NCBI GenBank assembly: GCA_950295325.1
Contig: OX485807.1
Span: 20,369,666-20,433,665, forward strand
Length of the DNA: 64,000 nt
Direction of reading: 5' to 3'
Origin: Polytrichum commune
Lineage: Eukaryota > Streptophyta > Polytrichopsida > Polytrichales > Polytrichaceae
Shown here: positions 919 through 32,250 of the stretch, piece by piece
Position numbering within the stretch: the first letter of the stretch is position 1
How the letters are laid out: the number at the start of each line of letters is the position of its first letter
Program-made: the position numbers and the translations under genes
Notes under the pieces: model-generated
Seen by the model: only the letters and a program-made list of their open reading frames with translations
The model's database searches: none
Told to the model about the DNA's origin: nothing

Positions 919-3900
919 CTACTTTCTTGCAGATTTGTTAGTCTCTTGCACTTCATACTGCGGACAACATGCCTTCAGTTCATTCTCATCATCGTCGTGC
1001 ACTTCTTGGCCATTCTCCACTGCACTCCCTTCACCTTTATTGGGGGCCTTTCCAAAATAGGAATTAGTTCCTTTCCGTTCGCACAATGGCTTCCTCCCTT
1101 CATCTTCCTCACTATTGCTCTCATCGCCACCATTGCTCCCACTGGATGCAAACCCTTCTGAGCTCTCAGAATTGCCCTCCAAGACGCTCAGTAAGTCAGT
1201 TTTTTTAGAGCTCATGCACTCTTCACCCTGCTGCAAGGAAACAAATTCAAATCATCAACATCAGTTCGAGCAATAAAATTCAAACTTTTGGAAGTGGACA
1301 GTACTAAAGTTCAATCAACATAGAAAGTTCTATGGTTGCGATTATATGGAAAAGGCAAAATTATTGCTAACCACAACCACATCCACCCATTACCCCATCA
1401 AACCCACTAATGCATGTGGTCAACCACCCTTAGGGTAGTTGTTCATGCTCACGTGGCACCACTTGAGAATTTCAAGGCCAACATCCAGGGAGAAAGTTCA
1501 GGAGGCAACTCCTTTAGCACTACAATCCAGGGCTAACAAGGAAAATAATCACTATGATTTCTTCTAGAGTCCAAAACCTAAAGCCAATGATAAATTGCAA
1601 CTTGGAAGACCGATCCCACCATTGATACCAACCACAAGATATCACACATCACAAGAATTCACACACCGCAGGACTTCACACATCACAAGTGTGAATGAAG
1701 AAATTCGCAATTGTGGTTGATTGTCAAGGTTAACCACAACCAAAACCACCTTTACAGTCTTAACAACCCTTCAATGGTAACTCAAATCCACTGCAAACAC
1801 ATCATTCAACATGCCTATTCTTCCAGTCCTGACTTTGACCAGACTTTTACACTACTTGTATTCTAATAAAATAATCATGTGCTAGAAAACATTGGTGGCA
1901 AGAAAGAAGGCATGGCGGGTACTCATTGGCAACCTAATGTCCAAGTGGGAGGATATGAGCAGAGCTTTTACCTCATCCCGTTGCTCACGGTCAATGATGT
2001 CAAGCACCCTGAAAGTGTGGACCTTTAAAGACCGATCTTCAGCATTGATGATTTCAAATTCGCAAACATCTCCCTCATCAAGGAGGCGGGCACAAGCACT
2101 CCATCCACCCCGAACTCAGCACACCTTTTCTATTGCATTTCACAACCCATTCTTTTGTATTTTTGTCTACAAGCTTGACCAAAGTCTCTCCTTTCACCAG
2201 AAGCGGACCCACAGATGTTTTGGAGAGATCCTGCAAAGAACAGGACACACAACATGAAGACTTATAATGTTATTCACAGAAGGAACTTTGGTGATGGAAA
2301 ACTGATTTATTAGGGTTTCAACTTTTAAGCAAAAATCCCATTGAGAATATGATATGCAATCAGCTAATCGAATGGAGCCATTTAGAGGAGAAACTCACTG
2401 CTGCAGAATATGGGAAGCATTTTGATGGAGTGAGGATGATAATGTCTTGTGGACATTTTATTGTCAAACCCATTCTACTATAGGCTGCATCAAGTACTTG
2501 ACACCTTTGGGCTCGAGTGATGGTGCTTCTTCTATGATTTGCTACTCCATTTGAGGAGCCGCGCCCATACTTTGTTTCCTGTCCAGTGCTTGCGTCCCCA
2601 CATTCTTCAGTCACAACCAACAATTTTTTATAGACATGGAAGCTTTTAAATACAGTTAGTAGCTTAATAAGAGATGATTGAAAGAGCTATATATGTGTAC
2701 TAGGAAAAACATAGATAGAAGCAGAGAAAAGACCATGACTGTTGCATATAATGTGCAGGAAACCAACCAAACCCATAAAAATACTTCGCTCATATGACAC
2801 TCCGCTCACTAAACAGCAGAAATACTGATATCACCACCTCCCAGTATTTTATCACACTTCATTGTTGACATGAACAGTTCAACATGTAAGAAGGCAAAGA
2901 TGTCTCTGGTTTTTTTTTAAAGGTGGGAGAAGATATGCAAAAAAAACTCAATCGCTAATATGAGTAGCTGTGATTCCCATACCAGAGTCCACATCCTCAA
3001 CATCACATTTTCCATGCTTATGAAGAAGAGAAGCCTTAGTGAATCCATCAGCAGAGTCCTCATCCAAAGTCGCTCCCAAGCATTTCTTCTTGGAGAACAT
3101 GATCTATGTGAAGCTGAGGATGAGGATGTTACAGATACATCACCGCCCCCTTTTGACTTACAGCAAGAGGAGAGTTATTGTATGCCCTTTCCTTCATTAA
3201 TAGTTCTAGCTTTGTCGGGGTTTCTTGCATCCTTTCCTGCCCTCAGGCGATATTCTGCTCAAACTGAGAGGATTCTTGACGCTTGGACAAATTCTCCGTG
3301 CCCTCGCCATCCTCTCAGCACCTTAATCTGTAATGTTGTTCAAAGAGATTCTTCCTCAGTCCCCCCTCCAACTCTTCGCAGTCATCAGGATCACTTTTAG
3401 AACTTCTTTGGCCATTGGCAATTGCACCTGGTGTTGCAGTCGCCTGGATTCCTTGCACATTTGAGCCTTCTACCCATTCTTTCTTTACCTTGGCATCTGG
3501 TATGGAATTAGCGTGTGGTGTCTTCAAAACAGATTGTGAAGATTTGGCCTTCTGCCAATCTTCAGCCTCATAATTCTCAATGTCATCATCACTGTCAAAG
3601 TCTATAACAGATGATAAGGGTTTGGGATGTTCTTTGGATAATTTCTCCTGTGTATGACCTTCGACCTCGTTACTTTCATTCTTCACAACAGCAGGTGGAT
3701 GTTAGCATGTTCCTTGGGAACCTCTGCTCTATGTTGTGTCTGCTCATGACTTTCAATCTTCACAGCAGTAGGTGGGAGGTTGACATGCTCCTTGGTATTC
3801 TTTGTGTTTTGTTGTGTATAGCATGTAGTCTCCTGCATGTCCCCAGTACTGGGCACAGAATTTGTTCCATGTGGAGGCAAATCCCCTGTGCCCATGACTG

Positions 3901-14810: not shown

Positions 14811-17800
14811 ATGCAGGGGATGGCTCGGGCAGAGCACCACCGAACAGACAGGCACTCAGCACAGAAGAAGATAGCATCACCGCCGACGCCGAACTCAACC
14901 AACTGGCACACTCAATCTCCGAAAACAAAACAAGATTGCAACCCGACAACCCAGATCTCAAGCACAGCGAAAACACCAGGAGAGAAGACCACAGAAGCCA
15001 ACAGACAACGGCCGCAGCATAACAGCGCAGAGAAGAAGCACCGGATCAGCAAGAAAAGGAGGAGCCGCTTAGATCCAGACTCAAGCGAAGGAACAGGAAG
15101 TGGATCGCCGTCAACTTATTTCAAAAAAACTAGGGTTTCACCCTTCCTTACACAATGGGTGCTCCTAAGCACCGTTCTCATGTGTGTCTACACACATCCC
15201 TACACTACTCCACAAATGCACACCCCTACCAACTACCCTCCACACTACCATCTCACACTAGCAACGCTCACACTCAACCCTCTAAGCTTTCTGCCCCCGC
15301 ACCGAGATCCACCAAGAACACCAGCAAGAAGCCCTCCATCCAAACTCATAGAACACCAAGGGCGCCCTCCAAAAAGACCACCAGATCCGCGCTCTCCCCG
15401 CAAGCCACCACCAGTTCCACGCACATCGCCACGGCCGCCCATAACACACCCCCACAAGCACACAAGGGTAAGCAAATCTGGTTGCCCCTACCATCATCAA
15501 ACTATCTTCATAAAAAAGCACAAAAGCACCACAAAACTAATCAAAGGCTTACCTCCAAAATTTGATCCCCGCTGGCCAGCGCCCCCTCGTACATTCACAA
15601 ATCCTCACGCCAAGCCCAAAACCGCGCCGAACCAGAGTAGATCAGAAAGCCCCACTATGACAGCCCAACAAACCAAATCAAGAACACCACCAGGCACCCA
15701 AGTTTACCACGATGCCCACCCAAAAGCAGGTCCAAAACAAACAAACACTAAGGCCTCACACAAAAGACACACACCCTACCTTCAAGAACCCCAAATCTGG
15801 CCGAAACCCAGTACCCTACACCCCCTAAACCCAGCCAAGACTACTCCGACATCCACCCACAACACGAATACCCCCAAGCAGCGCCGCAGATCTACACACA
15901 GCACACCTCTGACCTCACCAAATCACACTCCAGCAAACACTCAGCCAAAACCAGTTATGCGACACTTCGCCACCCCGCAGCAGATCGGTGCCCACCCGCC
16001 AAGCCCACACTCAAACCAGAAAAAACCATCCAACCTCTCCCACCGATCCCTTCAAATACCCCAGCATTGCTCCCAATCTTTCATCCCACTCCACAGCTCA
16101 CACAGTAGCACCACCATGGCTACCCCCCATGATGACACCGCGATGCACACAGATGTAGAACCACGGAGCAGAGCCAGGCAGACTCGGAATTCCGGCACCA
16201 CGAGCAAGGGCAGCCTCCGACTAAAGGCAGGGAGCGAGATCAGCAAACAGAGAGCCAGCGCAGGCAAGGACTGCCTCAGCAACCGCCGCCGAGCAAAGGA
16301 AGGAGAGAGCGAGGAGGGCGCCCGCGGAGCGGAAGACCAAGGGAGGAGCATAGCGGCGCCACCACTCGGCAGCAACGGAGCGGCAGGCAACAAGGACCCA
16401 GCCCACAAAGGAACCGGGACCCGCACCAGTAATGGCAGCAGAAGGAGGGCACTAATCGAAGATTACAGCGATGAAGACGAAGTTGCGAAAGACGACCTCC
16501 ACACAATGCCACCATCGCTTATGAAGGGGAAGGCCCTCACCTTCCAAGACATCGACATCGACATGCAATTAGAAAACGTCTCCCCCGAGCATGGGGGGAG
16601 TTCACTTCAACTTTCCCTCTCAAATGATGAATTCATGGCCGCCCCGAACCAAGCCGCCATACTTCGACTTGACACCATCAACTTGGCCGAAAGGACACCC
16701 ACCACCACAACACACAAGAGCTCAATGAATGTAGCCACATAGGACAACCAAAGTGCGAAGAGAAGACGAAGCGAATCGGGAGGAATAGAGGCCAACCCCG
16801 ACTCACACAAATCACACAACACGAGGTCCAAGGAAGCAATTCCAAGCATTGACATAGTGTCCCAAATGTGGTTGGGCTTCCCCATCCATGAAGCCGTTGC
16901 GGTGCAAAAGGGTGTAGACGTCATACGAGAGCTCCGCACCAACGAAGATTTTGCTCGGATTGGGACACCCCCGAAAGAAATCATCCACTTCAAAACCCTT
17001 CGGAGAGCATTTCCAAGAGTCCCACAACTTTTTTATCCAAGCGAACGCCCGGACGCGGTCCCCGGCAACCACCTCCACTTTACACAAATCCCAAGACAAG
17101 AAAAGGTAGACCCCTCAACCGGCCTATCCGAAGGGTTCCATGTAACCATTCGTTTTGACTTTGGCTTTAAAAGTATTAGTAGGCAAGAAGCTAGAGGGGC
17201 TTGCCTTGAGAGACTTAAGCAAATGGACATTCCACTTGGCACGGCATATTCGAACCCTCTTGATGTAGGGATCAACGCCGTCACCAAAAATTGGGCGGGC
17301 TTCATCAAGGTCCATCTCCAAAAAACAACGCGACGGGCATGCGCTACTTCAAGGAAACCGCGCATTTGTCATGGAAATGGAGGACAAAGAGTTGGTCATT
17401 GGTAAGGTGGAGAAGGGGTACGAGCTTGCCACTAAAGCCCGCAATCTTAGATTGCACCTTAAGGGAAAAACACTTCGATATGAGCATGCATTCAACATTT
17501 TCGAAACCATTGTTCGGGAGAGCTACTACAACAGACAACAACACGAATTCATGGGCCTCACCAAGCCGGAACTCGACAAAAATTTTGCGTTTCTCACACT
17601 CACCACCGAAGAAGCACGCGACCACATATTTAAGGAGGGGCTCACATTCAACCATGAGAGGCTTCAAGTAAGCATCACCCGAGACCGAGGAACCGGCAAC
17701 CCTTCGGAGCTCCGAATTAGCACAACACTAGTGGCTAACAACTTACCACAACGGGAGACACAAACAACAATTACAAGGGCCATCAAGCATGCATTCGGGA

Positions 17801-18465
17801 CGGACAACATCGTTGGCATTAGCTTCGGCAACAACAACCTACCCCACACCGACAAACAAGCCGGATGGTGCCACATCCAATGTCTCAACACCGCGGTGTA
17901 CACGGAGTGGCTTCACAAATCCACATTCATCCTTGGACGCCGCATCGACTTCATCCCACACCGAGGAAGTATAGACGGTACAGACCCCAACAAGACGGCG
18001 ATAAGACTAGCCCAAGCTCCCGTGCGAGAAGCCATTGCGGAGAAAATCCAAGCCATGGGCAACGCCACCAACGCCAACCCACTCCTCACGGAAAACTACC
18101 TCACCAAAACCATGAAGGAATTCGAAGACAAATTGGATGAAAAATTTTGCACGCTCACCACCACAATCAATACGCATACGGATCGACGCCTCGAAACAAC
18201 CACGGCGACCATCACACACCACACCAACAACCTTCAAGCACTCTTTGGTACAATTGCTCACGAGTTCCAACAATCGAACCTCCGCATGCAAGGCCTAGTA
18301 AACGGACTCGCCGCCGCCGCACCGGAAATTCTACAACGAACCGCCCCACCCCCACTACCACAAAGCTACAACACGACCGCCTCCCCGCTACCTCTACAAG
18401 CACCACCGGGCTTCCATAACAACCCAACAATGTCTCACCAAGGACCTAGCGCGTTTAATGGATAG
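14811..18465 (+). pseudogene. LINE ORF1 protein (low-complexity N-terminus, RRM-like domain, helical tail)
   Basis: LINE ORF1 proteins bind the element RNA and chaperone target-primed reverse transcription. The frame runs from ATG 14811 to a TAG at 16740-16742, continues in the same frame to about 17330, then shifts by one base (probably in the A-run near 17320) into the frame ending at 18465. The first 550 or so residues are rich in Pro, Thr, Ser, His and Lys and may be partly leader sequence. The conserved part, about 16850-18465, contains an RRM-like region: TTLVANNLPQRETQTTITRA, then GISFGNNN, AGWCHIQCLN and GRRIDFIPH. It is followed by a probable helix (KEFEDKLDEKF..TTTINTHTDRR) and a Pro-rich end. 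No CCHC knuckle is visible. The RRM assignment is from pattern only. Confidence 0.6.
18458..18465 (+). promoter_or_regulatory. ORF1/ORF2 overlap (ATGGATAG)
   Basis: The ORF2 start codon (18458-18460) lies inside the last codons of ORF1, whose TAG stop is 18463-18465. Such tight stop-start overlaps allow translation of the second frame by reinitiation in some LINEs. Whether it works this way here is inferred. Confidence 0.55.
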
Positions 18466-19135
18466 TCGCCTCCAAGGACACCATAAATGGTCCCTCTCCT
18501 CTATATGTTGTATTGTTTTCTTTTCATATAATAAAATGCCCTCATTTTTTAAGGGTATATTTTCTCCATACATAACCTCCCACAGAGCTAGACTCACCTT
18601 CCAATATATATGTCTACTAATTGCTACCCTCTTCCTCCTAACAAAACACACACACACCAAAATCACACATAATCCAACGCACCATACCCACAAATTTCCC
18701 CTAAGACACGTCATGTACAACCCTCACAATCACACCCAAAAAACAACACCACCCATAATCCCACCTAGACTACAACACACATCACACACGAAGACCTCCA
18801 AACCTATCACTACCCACACACTACAAATACACACATTAACGCATCTCCCAAACAACCATAAGATACCTACCGCATACATCTATAATCCCCATTACTCCCA
18901 TAGACCACATAATATCACAACATACACACCACACATAGACAACACCCACCAATGTAACTATAGAAAGAGTACCTCACACACATACAAACGCCACTACCAC
19001 ATAAACAAAAACCCACACATAAACCACAACAACACAACCCACATAATCATCCCCATCACTATATCAATATATATAGGCAATATCTACTACATAACACACA
19101 TTCACCACAAAAAACCAAAACTGAAAACCATAGCA

Positions 19136-19294
19136 TATTACACGTGGAATAACTCTACACTTATAATCTCACACGGAGACATTGAACTAAACCCGGGGCC
19201 GCTCTCAACCACCCTCAAAAACCTCCCCAAAGAATACACACAACGACAAAAACAATACTTTATACCAAAAACCCTAACACTCAAACCTCAACAC
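19136..19294 (+). other. 2A-like unit 1 (canonical GDIELNPGP)
   Basis: This 53-codon unit starts YYTWNNS and contains GDIELNPGP at 19175-19201, matching the 2A consensus D(V/I)ExNPGP. In 2A peptides the ribosome fails to make the Gly-Pro bond, releasing the upstream product; the skip point would be between 19198 and 19199. The residues before it (LIISH) are hydrophobic, as in active 2A. Unit ending: LPKEYTQRQKQYF. The frame is continuous with the downstream endonuclease apart from the later TAA. Activity is inferred. Confidence 0.75.
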
Positions 19295-19453
19295 TACTAT
19301 ACATGGAACAACTCCATATTCATATTACTAGGAGGAGCCATACACACAAACCCGGGCCCACCTTCCCACACTCTAAACACTCTTCCACATGCACACACAC
19401 AAAGACAAAAACAATCCCTCATGACTAACACAATTATGTTTAAAATACTCTAT
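19295..19453 (+). other. 2A-like unit 2 (GAIHTNPGP, degenerate)
   Basis: A direct, diverged repeat of unit 1, beginning YYTWNNSIF exactly 159 bp after it and repeating the TQRQKQ block. The core is GAIHTNPGP at 19334-19360. NPGP is kept, but the Asp and Glu of the consensus are replaced by Ala and His, so activity is doubtful. Confidence 0.6.
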
Positions 19454-19591
19454 AAACTCCTAAAAGAAAAACTTAAACCTTACCCAAACCCCCACATTTC
19501 AAACTCATACACACCACCAAATTCCACCCCCCTTCACACGAACCAATATAAACCAATCACGAAAAAACCCAACCAAAAACCACAATTAAGC

Positions 19592-19750
19592 ATAACAATA
19601 CAACACCATACTCAACTACATTTACTCATTTTACAATGCGGAGACATTCACCCTAATCCAGGACCTATGCCTGACCTACTAAAAACACACCCCCCTGCCC
19701 ACAAGAAAAGACAAACAACATACTTCCTACCAAGTACGATCAAATTCCAC
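19592..19750 (+). other. 2A-like unit 3 (GDIHPNPGP)
   Basis: LLILQC precedes GDIHPNPGP at 19640-19666, and a KKRQTTYFLPSTI block follows that aligns with the RQKQYFIPKTL block of unit 1. It retains Asp and NPGP, with His in place of Glu. Sequences of the GDIxPNPGP type occur in front of the endonuclease in some animal LINEs. Skipping would occur between 19663 and 19664, releasing the endonuclease-RT-RNase H part with an N-terminal Pro. Unit borders are approximate. Confidence 0.65.
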
Positions 19751-22700
19751 CCAGAATACCAACATTTGGCCGAAACATTCAAACCCCTTTTCCAAAACAC
19801 ACATCCGCTACATACACAAATAATACGCTCCTTCCCATACTTGTATAATCACATACAACAATATAATCACCATCCTCCCCCAAGGGTCATCTATACAATA
19901 GTCGTAACCATTAGTCCCTCCACTCTTACATGTAACACACTCCTACACCACCAACCAATACAAGAATTGACATTTCAACTACTAGAAAGAATGTCAAGAT
20001 TGCAAAACCCACCAGAAAGACACATAGATACCCCACACCCATATACACAATTTTGTCATATATATAAAGACACTATCACCCCTCCTAATACAATACACAA
20101 ACAATTATATGATTATATACATCTAAACCATAACTCCGTTAATATAGAAAAATTACAAGAAAAATTCCCATACCTACCACGACAACTACTAATGGAGGCA
20201 CTAAGATATAACGAACCTATAAATGAATACACACGTCCCAATCCCCCCATTACTTATCATTCATCACCCTCGTCCAACCCGGTCCCGCTAACTAGTCAAG
20301 AATCATACGCCATAACCTGGAATGCCTCCTCACTAAACACTGCCATGCCATGTCTACAAGAACTAATCACGGACCCCCAACAACCCCCATCAATCATCAC
20401 CATTTAAGAAACCAAGCTTTCCGCCACTAAATCCACAAAATATATACAACACCTATTCCCTCAATACAAACTTTTCTTTAACAACACACACAACATCACA
20501 AGAATCACACGCCAACGAATGACATATAGAGGAGGACTACTACTACTAATACACAACAAACATGCATTCCCAGGAAATCTTTCCAAAATTCCCACCCCCG
20601 CAAACATATCCCCATTCCTCCAAGTAACGCGCATAGCAAACCAACCTTTACAACCATGGCTCTTAATTAATTTATATATGCCTTCACATGAGGAGGACCT
20701 ACCTCTCATCCCCATCATACAAACTAACATCACTCATCAAATAAATACACACCCTAATCACGCATACATCCTATGTGGAGATTTCAATAGAGACGTTGCT
20801 TTGATTGGAAGACAAAATGACCAACAAACCACACCGCCACAACCGGAAGATTACCTTTGGCGAACCTTTACAACCAACCTAGAACTAACATATATCACGA
20901 CAAACACAACATTTTCAAGGCAAGGAGGACATAATTACACACAAAATAGCCTAATAGATGGATTTTACATCAAAACCCCACATAACCACCTATTCACCTC
21001 AACTACAAATCAAACAACACACCTAAACTCCGATCATCTACCTATACAACTCCGAATACCCCCAAACACACTTATAGCAAGAGAACCAATCACAACCCCC
21101 GACCCACCACCTAGGATACTCAACCCTATACCTAAGGAAAACCTAGAAACCTTCCACACCAAATTCTTCGAGGACAACTCAAACCAAATCGACGAGCTCA
21201 TACAATTATTAGAAAATAACCACTTGACAAATGAACAATGGCAAATAGCATGTCAATCACTAAGTTCCCTCACCGACAACATTACCACCACCGTCCTAGA
21301 AACATGTAGTGTCCCACCCATCCTCACGCTTTCAAACAAAATTGCTAAGCAAGGAGGCTACCTTCCAAAGAAACTCCAAAAAGAATGAAAATACATCTAT
21401 CTACCTACCATCTTATTAGAAAAACAATATATATAATAAAAAACAACCCAAATTGGCGAATTCACCCCATCATCACACAAGAAATTAACAACCATACCTC
21501 TGTCACTATACCCCCACCTCCACATCCATCCCACCCATACGAAACATGGTTAGCCAACTTAGCCAACATCGCCAAAGAAGCTAAAAATAAAGCCCGCAAA
21601 ATAACAACAAACTACACAACCCAACAAATCAAAAAAGCCATATGCAAATACCAACAATTATATGACAAAAGTCTCAAGAAAATTAATAGAAAAGTCTTCA
21701 AGAATATTGACACCCCCCTCTAGATTGCCTAATAGATCGATTTAATAATATCCTTACAAGCCCCACAGACATCGCACAAGAAATACATGTGCAACAATTC
21801 ATAAGCAATAGACCAACCGTCCCAACATGCCATTATCAACCCGATCACCCACAACAATGCCTATGTGGAGTTAGACAATACCCGTGGCACGACCTTAACG
21901 GATTTACTATAGAAAAAAGAGGTGAAGCCTTAACTCCCTTACACACATACCTAGACCAAGAAACATATGATATATGTCTTAAAAACCTTACCAACGGGAA
22001 AATGCCGGGACCCGATCGAATTCCTAACACCATACTAAAAAATATGCCGCCAAGATTCCACAGGCTTCTACTATTATTTTTTACCCACTGTTATAAACAA
22101 AAACAAATACCTGAAGCTTGAAAAACGAGCCTTACGATACTCTTATACAAAAAAGACAACCCCCATCACCTCACCAACCATCGGCCTATTGCACTTGCCA
22201 ACACTATTTACAAACTATTTACTAGCACGCTCACTAGTATACTCTCCTCGTACGGGGAAAAATACCAAATTCTACATGATAGCCAAAAGGGCTTTAGAGC
22301 GGAAAGATGCACCGCCCGACAACTTCAAACCCTCATTGCCGCATTAGAAGATGCACGACTCACTAGCCAAGACATCTACATCCTATACATAGACTTCAAA
22401 AATGCCTTTGGGTCTATCGACCATGCTAGACTCCTCGCCATTATGAAAGACCTCGGTTATCCGCAAGATGCCGTAGCACTAGTAGGAAATATCTATTCAC
22501 AATCAACTACCACATTTATCGGGGAACACTTCGATAAAACACTACCCATACCCATACAAAGGGGAACCATACAAGGAGATACGCTAAGCCCTTACCTCTT
22601 CATCATCTTTCTCGAACCATTACTTAGATGGTTACAACGCGGACCCCACGGATACACCTTTAAAACCTCTAATACAAAATTAAGCTCCGCGGCCTATGCG

Positions 22701-25700
22701 GATGACCTAGCGGTAATATCCAACAACACGACATCCATCCAACAACAATTGAACAAGCTAGATAGATATTGCGAATGGGCCGGAATGGACCTAGGCATAC
22801 CGAAATGCGCAATCACGGGATGCCCAAATAAATCCAAACTAAATGCACAAGCCTTTAAAACACATTTAACGGCCATCAATATTAACTTCCGAAACCAACC
22901 AATACCGATACTAAGTCAACACAAACCATATGTCTACCTCGGAATCAACTTAGTTCCATCACTACAATGGAAAACACAAACGCACATCACAACAACCAAA
23001 CTAATCAAACAATGTAAACTCCTAACCACATGCCCAGCCACCATGAAGCAAAAAATACAAATGGTTGACACAGTCATAAGAGCCGGCATAGCCTATAGCT
23101 TTTATGCCGTCCCATACTCACTTCCCGCTATTAAAAAACTAGATAAAAGAATAATTGCCCTACACAAAAATATATGTGGCCTCCCGAAATGCCTATCAAA
23201 CGCCGTTACACAACTTCCACAAAATATGTTTGGCACCGAAGCTTTCTCACTAAAAAACGCCTATATAACATGTATCGGCGAACAACTCATAAATGCCCTC
23301 AACGACCAAGGAAGACTTGGAAGAATATATAATGGACTAACCAAACATATCCTTGCCAAACATGGCGGATCACTCCACTTACCCCGAATATCCCCACATG
23401 ATTGCATGAGATCACCAATTACTAGAACATTATACCTACTCAAAAAAACTAGTGACACTCACCTTAGAAGTACACTTGCAAAATTCCCCCTACACCCTAC
23501 ACCATTAGAGACACAATGGATGAGTCAAGCACACCATATACCCACACTAACTCCCACCACTTCCCTCAAATACTTACATAAATTAATTTTACATAACATA
23601 ACCGAACTAAAACACATAACGCACCCTAATGGCACACACCTCATGACAAATGATGAATTCAAGTACTATTATGCCCCACCTACTAAAATAGTTAAAACCG
23701 CCCTAGAACACGCGCGTAAGATATTTTGTAAACCCCCTTGTCACAACCAATGCCCAAATACTTGCCTAACACATACGACACCCAATACTCTCAAGGACGC
23801 CTACAAAATACAAAATCATCATATAAACACAAGCCTAAGTAGACATAACATACACCCCATGCCACCCCCACTACCGGAATATCCAAAACCCCCCTTACAC
23901 ATCCAACAAAACCACATACAATTCCCAATACAATCTATAATAAATGACCACCCGCACACATACAAAGACATATACAAAATCACAAAACACTACACATCCT
24001 ACCTTTGCCAATGGATACTTCCTAATGAAACCAAATACCATAAATGGCTCCCACAAAGAGACTTGTTCCCATGGAACAACCAAAACACTATAAATCATAA
24101 CATACTACTCTTAACACAATACTACACCCAAAAACAACACCAACACTTCACCAACATTCTCCAAATAAACTTTAGTGAAGCACAAATGAGAGATACAAGA
24201 TATGTCCACCCACCACAAAACATACCCCTATGCCACATTTATACCAATGAATGTAACCCAGATAATGACATTGAATGCACACAACACACCATTCAAAGCC
24301 AATATGGCGCATCACACATCTATGATAATGACGGACGCTACCTAATTACCATTCCCGAACTAAGACTACAATGGTTATGGGAACAATACCAAAATGCATT
24401 AAACAAACCACACAACTTAGAACCCCCCACACAATCCTTTGAAAAAGAAGTGGCATGGTTGTATCAAAGGTACAAATATAGAATGCCCAAAAACGACCCC
24501 CTCAAACTCTCACAATACACCCTCCCAAATGCCATCATAGAAAACATCATCGACTCCTTCCACATCACTCATTCCTACTTCTCATCACCAATCACATGTC
24601 CTACTACATTGAAACAATTCTCCTCCCCATTTTCTAGGGACAAGGTATTCGGGTCAATAGGCACAGCATTCCAACATAAATGGGCAGGGGTGGGATATGC
24701 CCACCCGCACACAGAAAAAGACACTCAGCAAGCCCTACATTGGGCTAGACTTGCCGCCAAACATAACCCAGACACAATCACAATACTCATAACAACTGAC
24801 CCAAACTGGTACTACAACCTCAACCCCCATGAAGGCCCTTTCCCAGATTCTCACGTTATCTCACATTTCAAAGCAGACACCCTTGCATATGATGAACCCA
24901 CAATACCCCCGGAATTACGAACTAACCCACGAACAGAAAATCATGACATCCACATATTATGTATACACCACAAACACACGTCCCCCGGATCATGTGAATA
25001 TGCGAATCGTATGGACACTATTAGCACTACCCTCCAAATACCCACATCATTTCACACACCGGCACCGCCTACACCTATAAACACCTTAGTAAATAGAAGC
25101 AAGAAATGGTCCCAACTTATATACCCGCCCCCCCATCCACTTACAAACCAAACTTCTAACACTCCCATATACACGAATCACGACATATGCCTACCCCTCA
25201 AATATCACCCACAATTTTGCTATTACACGGATGGATCATTCATGCCACCCAAAGAAATAACCCGCGGGCATTGGAGAAGAGAAAAAGCAGGGTATGGTAT
25301 ATACAACCCTTTCAAAAACCTCAAAATCACAGAAAGACTACCCGGACTCCAAAATATACTTAGGGCAGAACTTATGGCTATACACCACACCCTCCACCTC
25401 CTCACTACCACATACCGGAATGAACCGGCACATATCTTTACAGATTGTCTCAATGTCTTATACCTCCTGAACACGCAAACTAAACACCCAACACTACACA
25501 ATAGCCACCCGGATAAAAAGATACTAGAATCCATAGTTAAGATGCTGCAATCCCGCACACAAACCACCACACTACACAAAGTCAAAGCCCACACAAACAT
25601 TCAAGGTAACGAACAAGCCGATAAATTAGCAAAATTGGGTTGTGAATTAGAACATAGAGACGCTACAACAACACATGAGCATGCGCACCCCACGCCATAC

Positions 25701-26684
25701 TACCTCCAAAAAGATTGGTGGCATTCAATGCAAGAAACACCAGACAAAGGCCCCATCCGCCACCTTGGCAAATACATCATCAAACACGATAAAAAACACA
25801 ACCTAGCCATTCTAGCAACCCAAACACATCAATTACATAAATGGCTTGATAACAAAGATATCGACAAGACATTATCAAATGACTTTTGGACCAACCCGGC
25901 TATCTCAGACAAGCAAAAAACGTGCTTAGTAAAATTCCGAACTGGACAATACATGGGACAAGCTAGAAAACAACTCTTTTTTGGTAGAATTGCATACCCA
26001 TCCCATACATGTAACATTTGCAACTCATTAGAAGCGGATACATGGCTACATATCCTCCTTAAATGCAAACAACAACACATCCACGCACTAATTACAAAAA
26101 GACATAACAAAGCGGTATGGGAAATATGCAAACTTCTTGTCTCAAATAAAATAACAAGACACTACATACTCATGAACGCAGGTACATATAATGAACTACC
26201 CCAAGACAACACAGTACCAACATGGTTACTACCCTGCACATGTGGTACCCAAAGATGTCATTGTAATGCTAGACTCAAACCCGACATTCTATGCATTATA
26301 GGGCACCCTTACGATTCCCCACCACCAGAAGCACCCACACCAGAAATTACAGTTCAATTTATAGAATTCACATACTGTAATGACAGATTCTCCACTGAAA
26401 CCATAAATCAAAAAGTCACAAAATATCAACCACTCATAAATAATATCATCGCAAAGGGTTGGAACGTAGCCCCACTTATTGTATTAGCATCTGGTGCCCG
26501 AGCCACAACTCACGTCCCCTCAATGAACGAACTTGAAACAAAGCTTAAACTCCCCACATCACAAATTAGGAACACATTCAAACAACTTAACATAATTGCC
26601 ATACAATATGCACACTCAATATTAATCCACAAAAGACGAATAGAAAATAGACAACCCATCACAAACCTACAAAATCATAACTAA

Positions 26685-30389: not shown

Positions 30390-32250
30390 CTACTTCCTAT
30401 TCTTCCGCTTCTTCAGCTTGGCTTCCTTCTTATTATGCTTCCGCTCCTCACGGCAGTCCACTCTGTCCATTGCCAAAGATGGAGCACGTGGTGGTGGCAC
30501 TGACACCTCCTGTCCATCGGGCCCGGGAATCACACCCACATGGTCCACCGTCTCCGTAACATCCGGCGCCAGTGGTGCGGACAGTTGGCTGTCCGGCGGA
30601 AATTCCGGAGCAAATAGTGCAAGCGGCGGCGGATCCCGGGCAACCATCTGGAAGGCCATAGTAGGGCTCGGTGGTGTTACCTCGGCCACGTGGCAACCAT
30701 CTAAGGTTTCCTTTCCAACGGTGGAGGAAACCGGGTTGGCATTGAGAACCACCACCTTAGTGGCGGAAACCGGCGGTGCCGTGAGCGCCGTGATGTCTTC
30801 CACTTGGTCCACCTCTTCCCCATATTGGTTTCCACCTCCTACCGCGGCACCCTGAATTTCTACCACATCATGAGGGGTCAAGTCGGAGTAGCTCAATGAG
30901 GTCTCCTCTTCTTCCGATGACTCTACCGTGGTGGGAAACAACTTCATGCAGCTAGCAATGAGGGCCTTCATTGCTTTCAAAGCTGCGTTCATCTTACTTC
31001 CTTGATCCATGATGAAGGTAACCATCTTCGACCCGGAAACATGACTTGCATTCTTCAATTCCGTGTCGAACATCTTGGCCTTCCACCACACATTCCCCGG
31101 GATATACACCATGTCACTCACATTTTGCACTGTGAGGGTGGTATCCTTCACCTGCTTCAGGAGCGTCTCTCGCTCCGTCTTCAATTTCCGCATTTGCTCC
31201 GTCGTCGTCCGATTTTCCACAGTAAGGTGGTTCACCTTACGCTCCATCTCCCACAACCGGCGCGGATCTTGGATGGCCTCTTGTATTGCGGCAACCAAAT
31301 TCTCCCGCGGAGGGTTGTCCACAAGTTCCCCCACCTGTTGCATTTGCAGCTCATACTCCGCAATCCGGGACCGAACTCCCTCTAGGTCGCGGATAATGGA
31401 ATCCACCGGATTGTCCTCTAAGGTGAAGGTGGAGGTTCCACCTCCTCCGGGTTTGGTGGCGGACCTGGTCCGCGTCGCAAGATTCCCCAACATCAGTTTC
31501 ATCTTCTTAGACACGGGCCGCTCTTCGTTGCTGAAGTCCGCCACATCTTCCTCCTTCGAATACTCTTGGCCCATTTCTGGCTCCGAGTCGGTGGTCTGGA
31601 GCTCCCGCATGATCTGATGCCCTGTCCATTGGGTTTCCTCTTTGTCCGTAAGCAAGTTTTCGTGCGTCTAAGGTGGAAGAGGAAATGACCAATGTAGGAT
31701 GATTGTCCGCGCTTAGTGTTGGTTGCCAACCAGTGCACCAACTCCCCAATGATACTTCCCCCAATTCACCACCTTCTTTTCGGAGTATGCAAGAAGCAAT
31801 GTGGTGGCTAAAGTGAGAATGATGTTGTAGGGCTTCTCCGGGCTCAAAATGGGTACCAAGAAAACTAACGTTCTCCTTTCTCTCTTGTCTTTGCAAATTT
31901 TTCACAAAGTAGCCATATTTGGGGTCCAATTTCTGAGAGAACTTATCCCTGGTGCAATCCTCTTTCTTACCTTCCCCTCCTTGCTTGAATCCGTAAACCC
32001 TACTCTACAATTCCGCATTCCACCTATCCGGTCGGCCCCGGATGGTGGAAGCGTAAATCTGGTCCACCTCCCCAGTGACCAATTCCCTCACCATCTCCTC
32101 ACATCGCACTCTCCAAGACTTTTCTAATAGCCCGAGGTAGCCCATGCGTCTTAGGTCTGTCTCCAGCTCATTACTCTCCTCTCTGCTCGTGGAGGTAAAG
32201 ACATGTACCTTACGGAGGGCTATCGGCTTGTCCGATATCCTCCTCCGGGA
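30390..32250 (-). pseudogene. Unrecognised element-borne protein with coiled coil
   Basis: Coding-like sequence runs on the minus strand from about 32250 to a stop at 30390. The upstream part reads LETDLRRMGYLGLLEKSWRV, REGRP-type and DPKYGYFVKN stretches and is broken by in-frame TAG and TAA codons (for example near 32005). A frame change near 31670 leads into an uninterrupted 400-residue segment. That segment has an acidic N-terminus, a probable coiled coil (EMERKVNHLTVENRTTTEQM, then KLKTERETLLKQV), a Pro/Val-rich acidic stretch and a strongly basic end (KKEAKLKKRKNRK). I do not recognise the family. A gag-like or other element-specific RNA/DNA-binding role is possible because it lies wholly inside the 3.8-kb insertion, but this is speculative. 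Confidence 0.4.

Follow-up and report, generated by a model that had tools for sequence, protein, structure and literature searches.

The window, meaning the whole stretch of 64,000 nucleotides that was analysed, lies within contig C5 of a 407.8 Mb genome (C1-C7 together amount to about 406.1 Mb), which 58 matches to light-harvesting proteins mark as that of a green plant and 34 WRKY exon matches as probably that of a land plant; a cluster of 14 light-harvesting-protein matches with equal scores was observed at C5:1751760-1846160. On its + strand, to which all features given below belong, the window carries a LINE copy at 14817..26684. Homology to pieces of a copy on C7 (~98% identity) begins at 14817 and stops at 26440, while the ORF2 frame ends at 26684, and the 3′ border given here is provisional. 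An ORF1 region, assigned by its position (16743..18465), has no Pfam match, contains a frame break near 17.3 kb and ends with a TAG at 18463-18465. ORF2 opens with a leader of 247 codons (18458..19198) that runs up to the Gly of the first of three 2A-like units, and after the third unit comes a conserved domain of about 215 residues (19664..20311), beginning at the Pro that follows the skip site. Compared with Pfam, this post-2A domain gave no family over the cut-off and two matches below it. The enzymatic part consists of an APE-type endonuclease (20312..21388, starting with ITWNASSLN), a reverse transcriptase (RVT_1, 22152..22949, Pfam E 3.2e-28), a PCIF1-like domain (PF12237, 24402..24731, E 3.9e-9) and an RNase H (25215..25643, E 5.1e-15). 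Rfam gave zero matches anywhere in the window.

The LINE copy of the window is dead. ORF2 has an in-frame stop at 20405, some 31 codons after the endonuclease begins, further stops at 21386 and 22119 and frame breaks near 21.4 and 21.7 kb, in addition to the break in ORF1. Despite this damage, the 2A units and the start of the endonuclease keep a common frame, and a 98%-identical copy on C7 (L002) is open from unit 1 to 300 nt beyond the start of its endonuclease match. The domain order of the window recurs in a single open frame in two other copies, L062, whose ORF2 is open for at least 2906 codons and reaches the end of the sequence examined, and L063, with 2409 codons; in both, the APE endonuclease and the reverse transcriptase lie within one protein, the endonuclease and PCIF1-like matches of L063 being below the Pfam cut-off. 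In the window, L062 and L063 alike, the PCIF1-like domain (PCIF1 is a cap m6Am methyltransferase) is placed between reverse transcriptase and RNase H. It has 150 scored matches in the genome, LINE membership having been checked for part of them only; in L062 it aligns to PCIF1 (6irv, E 3e-4), and the catalytic ANPPF of PCIF1 corresponds to AHPPN in L062 and, by eye, to AHPHT in the window.

The first-pass annotation had claimed three NPGP cores sharing one frame, and this is what we find: unit 1 with the canonical core GDIELNPGP (19175-19201), unit 2 with GAIHTNPGP (19334-19360), in which the Asp is lost, and the endonuclease-proximal unit 3 with GDIHPNPGP (19640-19666), which is conserved in the family, are all inside the open frame 18302-20407. 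Three NPGP in this frame compare with 0.009 expected from composition, and the six frames of the window hold a single other NPGP, at 31362, without 2A context. The leader of 247 residues (ATG 18458 to the Gly of unit 1) and the exact spacing of 159 nt between units 1 and 2 are likewise correct, and the RQ..YF-type block said to follow all three units is present except after unit 2, where it reads RQKQ without YF. With the nine core residues masked, units 1 and 2 align with a score of 99 against a maximum of 52 in 2000 shuffles, and units 1 and 3 with 66 against a shuffle maximum of 48, whereas the homology of units 2 and 3 is marginal (46, reached by 2 of 2000 shuffles); the units are thus diverged copies of one unit, marginally so for the last pair. 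The peptides between them would be 53 and 102 residues long. Genome-wide, the core pattern GGNGAYATHVANNNNAAYCCNGGNCC (p14 being E, D, H, Q, K or N) gave 415 matches, counted irrespective of whether they lie in LINEs, against 0 for the reversed pattern. These two comparisons reject chance, and the presence of three near-identical copies on C5, C1 and C7 rejects an assembly artefact, so that we assign practically no probability to either origin.

The three units are unequal. Unit 1 conforms to the motif (D/G/C/N)(V/I)ExNPGP and is probably active. Unit 2 departs from it with Ala at p12 and His at p14, and it is probably dead because the change of Asp12 to Ala is reported, in the relevant part of PMC12846837, to abolish F2A activity. 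Unit 3 and its relatives, with His at p14, lie outside the motif, yet this is a published active variant: passages of PMC12846837 give above 95% activity in reticulocyte lysate for His at p14 in its natural context, above 95% in natural context for His at p16, and 26-56% in earlier assays for Gln at p14. Judged from the comparison of sequences, unit 3 is the maintained site.

Conservation of the enzyme-proximal site was examined in 50 of the 123 endonuclease matches of the genome, chosen with long open frames favoured and spread over identity classes, by reading 2800 nt upstream of each match; the window brings the sample to 51 loci. Among the endonuclease matches, two score equally (C3:870392-871363 and C24:7605-8576) and two others lie on opposite strands about 20 kb apart (C1:70163554 and C1:70184258), which suggests assembly or segmental duplicates. 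Sites were searched by their context with the core masked, and eight core residues were scored, with E, H, Q or K accepted at p14. Of the 51 endonuclease-anchored loci, 50 have an enzyme-proximal site, about 765 nt before the endonuclease match; all eight scored residues are found in 39 and seven in 11, three of the latter having His at p16. In the exception, L030, unrelated sequence occupies the expected place. The last unit is in the same frame as the endonuclease in 38 of 50 loci, with no stop between in 31, and an NPGP unconserved or out of frame with the endonuclease, the outcome named beforehand as damaging to the 2A reading, was not the picture given by the 51 loci. Among the 50 loci that have a site, the stretch from the first unit into the endonuclease is not open in 23, the window among them; the last core is damaged in 4 of the 27 open loci (NLGP three times, NQGP once).

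Within the 43 enzyme-proximal sites, p15 varies while NPGP is nearly fixed, with its codons varying synonymously; 18 have the (D/G/C/N)(V/I)ExNPGP motif (GDIES 8, GDIET 8, GDIEL 2, all with NPGP). Positions -6 to -3 are mostly L or I, followed by C, S or G ahead of Gly-Asp, and C or S precedes the Gly in 39 of 43, in agreement with the L-rich context ending in (A/S/C)G by which, according to part of PMC12846837, a class of StopGo sequences is defined. Among L031-L050 (20 copies with 60-74% endonuclease identity), 14 have GDIETNPGP or GDIESNPGP at the enzyme-proximal place and none has a second intact site. The clade of the window carries there GDIHPNPGP, intact or damaged, with L018, L020 and L025 (GDIES type) as exceptions, and 0 to 3 further sites upstream, hence 1-4 in total. 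A polarity from single to multiple sites is not firm, since the node of the His clade has a support of 0.37 and the tree is midpoint-rooted. In the otherwise single-site lineage, position 1134 of L036 holds the remains of an upstream unit (EDIETNQDP) whose frame differs from that of the last unit, and stacking may for that reason be older than the derived clade.

Selection was estimated by compartment in 12 pairs of related copies, compartments below 50% identity being dropped except for the leader (2 pairs for the 2A, 1 and 2 for the first and second halves of the following domain, 3 for the endonuclease). Omega is 0.70 (0.60-0.82) in the leader (codons -150 to -30), 0.30 (0.19-0.46) in the 2A stretch, 0.26 in the post-2A domain and 0.14 in the endonuclease. 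The enzyme-proximal core itself is under strong purifying selection, with an omega of 0.06 (CI 0.03-0.09) in 25 pairs drawn from 59 copies, 0.07-0.11 in other pairings and 0.07 within the derived clade. The codons from -60 to -12 before this 2A are not neutral either (0.35-0.71), and the first residue of the conserved domain behind it is the Pro itself. An island of constraint that ends a weakly constrained leader is as expected if the leader is cut away. That NPGP is instead an ordinary structural motif of a repeated peptide, with no skipping, is in our opinion quite improbable, as the pattern of substitution is that of a 2A (free p15, limited p14, nearly fixed NPGP, L-rich context) and, in upstream units, constraint drops at the Pro. 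ORF2 would then be translated with a 2A/StopGo site about 215 codons before the endonuclease, where, from sequence and selection, the ribosome is predicted to release the leader and continue into an enzyme with an N-terminal Pro.

The beginning of this leader has features of its own. At ATGGATAG (18458..18465) the start codon of ORF2 overlaps the stop codon of ORF1. Overlaps of the form ATG[A/G][A/T]TAG were found 42 times; 30 distinct ones, spread over 27 copies, close an upstream frame that had been open for over 60 codons, and in 28 of these 30 the start shares its frame with the first unit. No overlap of this kind, ending a frame of more than 60 codons, was found among L030-L050, a set that takes in the single-site copies L031-L050. 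The SART1 LINE is described, in part of PMC5972666, as likewise having its ORF2 start overlapping the ORF1 stop, in the form UAAUG, whereas here the overlap is ATG[A/G][A/T]TAG followed by a conserved AATAAA. The AATAAA, at 18530..18535 in the window and thus shortly past the ORF1 stop, occurs 69-81 nt after the ATG in 29 of the 30 starts (27 copies), with 0.058 expected from local frequency; a T-rich, TGTAT-like stretch usually precedes it. As a lead only, this suggests a possible internal poly(A) signal after ORF1, which would give an ORF1-only mRNA.

The 30 ORF2 starts also share a similar N-terminal stretch, mostly moderately hydrophobic and with Cys at position 18 in 26 of them, so that the leader could be a targeting signal to which the 2A gives dual targeting, as described in part of PMC4981915 for sea urchin NLR proteins. 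We consider this unlikely: the N-terminal stretch has an omega of only about 0.5, in 6 of 30 starts, the window included, no 17-residue stretch within the first 30 residues reaches a hydropathy of 1.0, and in most copies examined about 165-520 codons separate the start from the first 2A. Moreover, the Asn-Lys codons of the leader coincide with the conserved AATAAA, so selection may act on the RNA.

How the units came to be stacked is recorded in the mosaic structure of the window (position i of the locus being window position 17607+i). L057, in which the enzyme-proximal 2A is the only unit, shares 90.8% identity with locus positions 200-1687, while positions 1684-3092 are 96.0% identical to L011 and positions 1659-3092 are 94.9% identical to L009, two copies that already have units corresponding to 2 and 3. 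The junction lies at 19266..19294, 22-31 codons after unit 1, with L057-like sequence upstream and L009/L011-like sequence downstream. We reject a local tandem duplication of 159 bp as the source of units 1 and 2, since unit 1 together with its leader matches L057 and unit 2 matches L009/L011. By these matches of sequence, unit 1 of the window represents one capture, added ahead of an older front with two units, 2 and 3. The reverse join is seen in L051, where an L016-like front (92.9%) carrying GDIQLNPGP and GDIHPNPGP stands ahead of the unit, domain and endonuclease of another lineage, nearest to L054 (71.6%). L007, L003 and L012 seem to have lost units through recombination of one unit with another. 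L021, L028 and L059 each have two ORF2-type starts, one behind the other in the same frame, which seem to be left over from earlier 5′ ends. We infer that a 5′ end comprising the end of ORF1, the start of ORF2, the leader and a 2A followed by a short remnant of the post-2A domain could be replaced in frame by that of another lineage, perhaps joined by template switching, that this would be tolerated because the leader is discarded, the 2A thereby being what makes the exchange tolerable, and that with each capture the earlier 2A would stay where it was, downstream of the new one.

A census of the units gave 124 places; 18 of them, with core scores of 1-2, were set aside as out of register or as matches to the post-2A domain, leaving 106 units (score of at least 5) in 61 loci, equal to 102 units in 59 copies, as L052 and L053 repeat parts of L064 and L063. 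One unit is present in 27 copies, two in 23, three in 7 and four in 2; these 59 copies include L051-L059, picked from 191 matches for hitting the 2A region, and the share of multi-unit copies should therefore not be carried over to the genome as a whole. Of 43 pairs of neighbouring units, 39 keep a common frame, 38 of them without a stop. In all six distinct multi-unit copies tested from the other lineage, what comes after the upstream unit is a shortened copy of the post-2A domain. Before the Gly, the upstream class has His in 16 and Gly in 12 of 48, and p14 is Gln or Lys in 24 of the 48 units classed as upstream or other, the last units of L051-L059 being counted there too.

It could be argued that selection maintains the array as a whole, with two or three active sites raising the total release or yielding short accessory peptides. 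All eight scored core residues are found in 34 of 43 upstream units, and in 19 nearest pairs their omega is 0.11 in the core and 0.21 in the context, compared with 0.64 behind the unit, and constraint stops at NPGP; viruses with several 2As exist as well, according to part of PMC11512398, and such roles are discussed for picornaviruses of this kind. Since the regular expression used or shared ancestry could inflate such selection, the comparison was repeated with the core masked and within sets sharing one arrangement, where omega of the displaced core is 0.65, of its context 0.35 and of the stub 0.74 (overlapping pairs with few changes), as opposed to 0.07 for the enzyme-proximal core of the same sets. 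The contrast in the core thus nearly vanishes, which weakens the proposal of strongly selected upstream units; several displaced units lack key residues (GAIH, EDIQ, RDIE, GDIY, NLGP, NPDP), and the segments between units have omega of 0.64-0.74. The 0.11 of the upstream cores may be inherited from an earlier enzyme-proximal position, and we read these few data on displaced sites as selection acting mainly before capture, with decay afterwards. Selection on the whole array accordingly appears to us doubtful, though it is the most serious of the alternatives. Of the interpretation first given to the array, the 2A identity, the frame with the endonuclease, the conservation in the family and the inequality of the copies are confirmed, the last by a clearly selected enzyme-proximal unit next to a unit 2 with Asp changed to Ala; three working sites are not, constraint on displaced units within one arrangement being weak or absent. 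The array is probably best read as stacked 5′-end captures tolerated by means of the 2A rather than as a purpose-built triple cutter, and a skip at the enzyme-proximal 2A combined with serial 5′ capture is, in our judgement, the likely explanation of the whole.

2A-bearing LINEs are known from the Ingi, CR1, L2 and Rex1 clades. In trypanosomes (L1Tc, Ingi) and animals the 2A is likewise in frame with an APE endonuclease-reverse transcriptase protein, with, as far as is known, one site per element and, in animals, a tie to the loss of ORF1; here, by contrast, ORF2 comes after an ORF1 and has as many as four sites in a row. Such elements are mentioned in parts of PMC11512398 and PMC5972666. The 2A/StopGo sequences of RNA viruses (F2A and the L-rich motif 2/6 class) resemble those of the LINE in the core, the (S/C)G context and the D at p12, and also in their in-frame place ahead of replication enzymes, as far as PMC12846837 describes them in part; the LINE sites differ in that they reside in chromosomal plant elements. 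Picornaviruses with several 2A(NPGP), such as aalivirus and DERSV, have their 2As in a row with about 50-150 residues between, according to part of PMC11512398, whereas the pieces between the 2As of the LINE include truncated copies of the post-2A domain, presumably left behind by 5′ captures, and are mostly without clear constraint. Passages of PMC12846837 state that there is no evidence of natural StopGo in plant viruses and that it is rare in cellular genes. In the titles and abstract openings searched, we found neither a natural 2A in a plant LINE nor a LINE 2A array; an earlier report is possible.

In this plant LINE family, StopGo thus appears, from its sequences, to be conserved and abundant, as the number of core-pattern matches indicates, and the family supplies natural variants for testing, with His, Gln or Lys at p14. 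The swapping of retrotransposon front ends would have left a datable record in the stacked copies. It is perhaps an even chance that the 2A serves as a modular firewall for the exchange of a 5′ module (ORF1 end, start and leader), with the tandem arrays as the fossil record of that exchange, a case of natural StopGo in a land plant that, in part of the lineages, would be linked with an overlap of stop and start codons and with an internal poly(A) signal, the two together setting the ratio of ORF1 to ORF2. More broadly, the stacked 2As hint at why modular evolution should in general be favoured by the presence of 2A sites.
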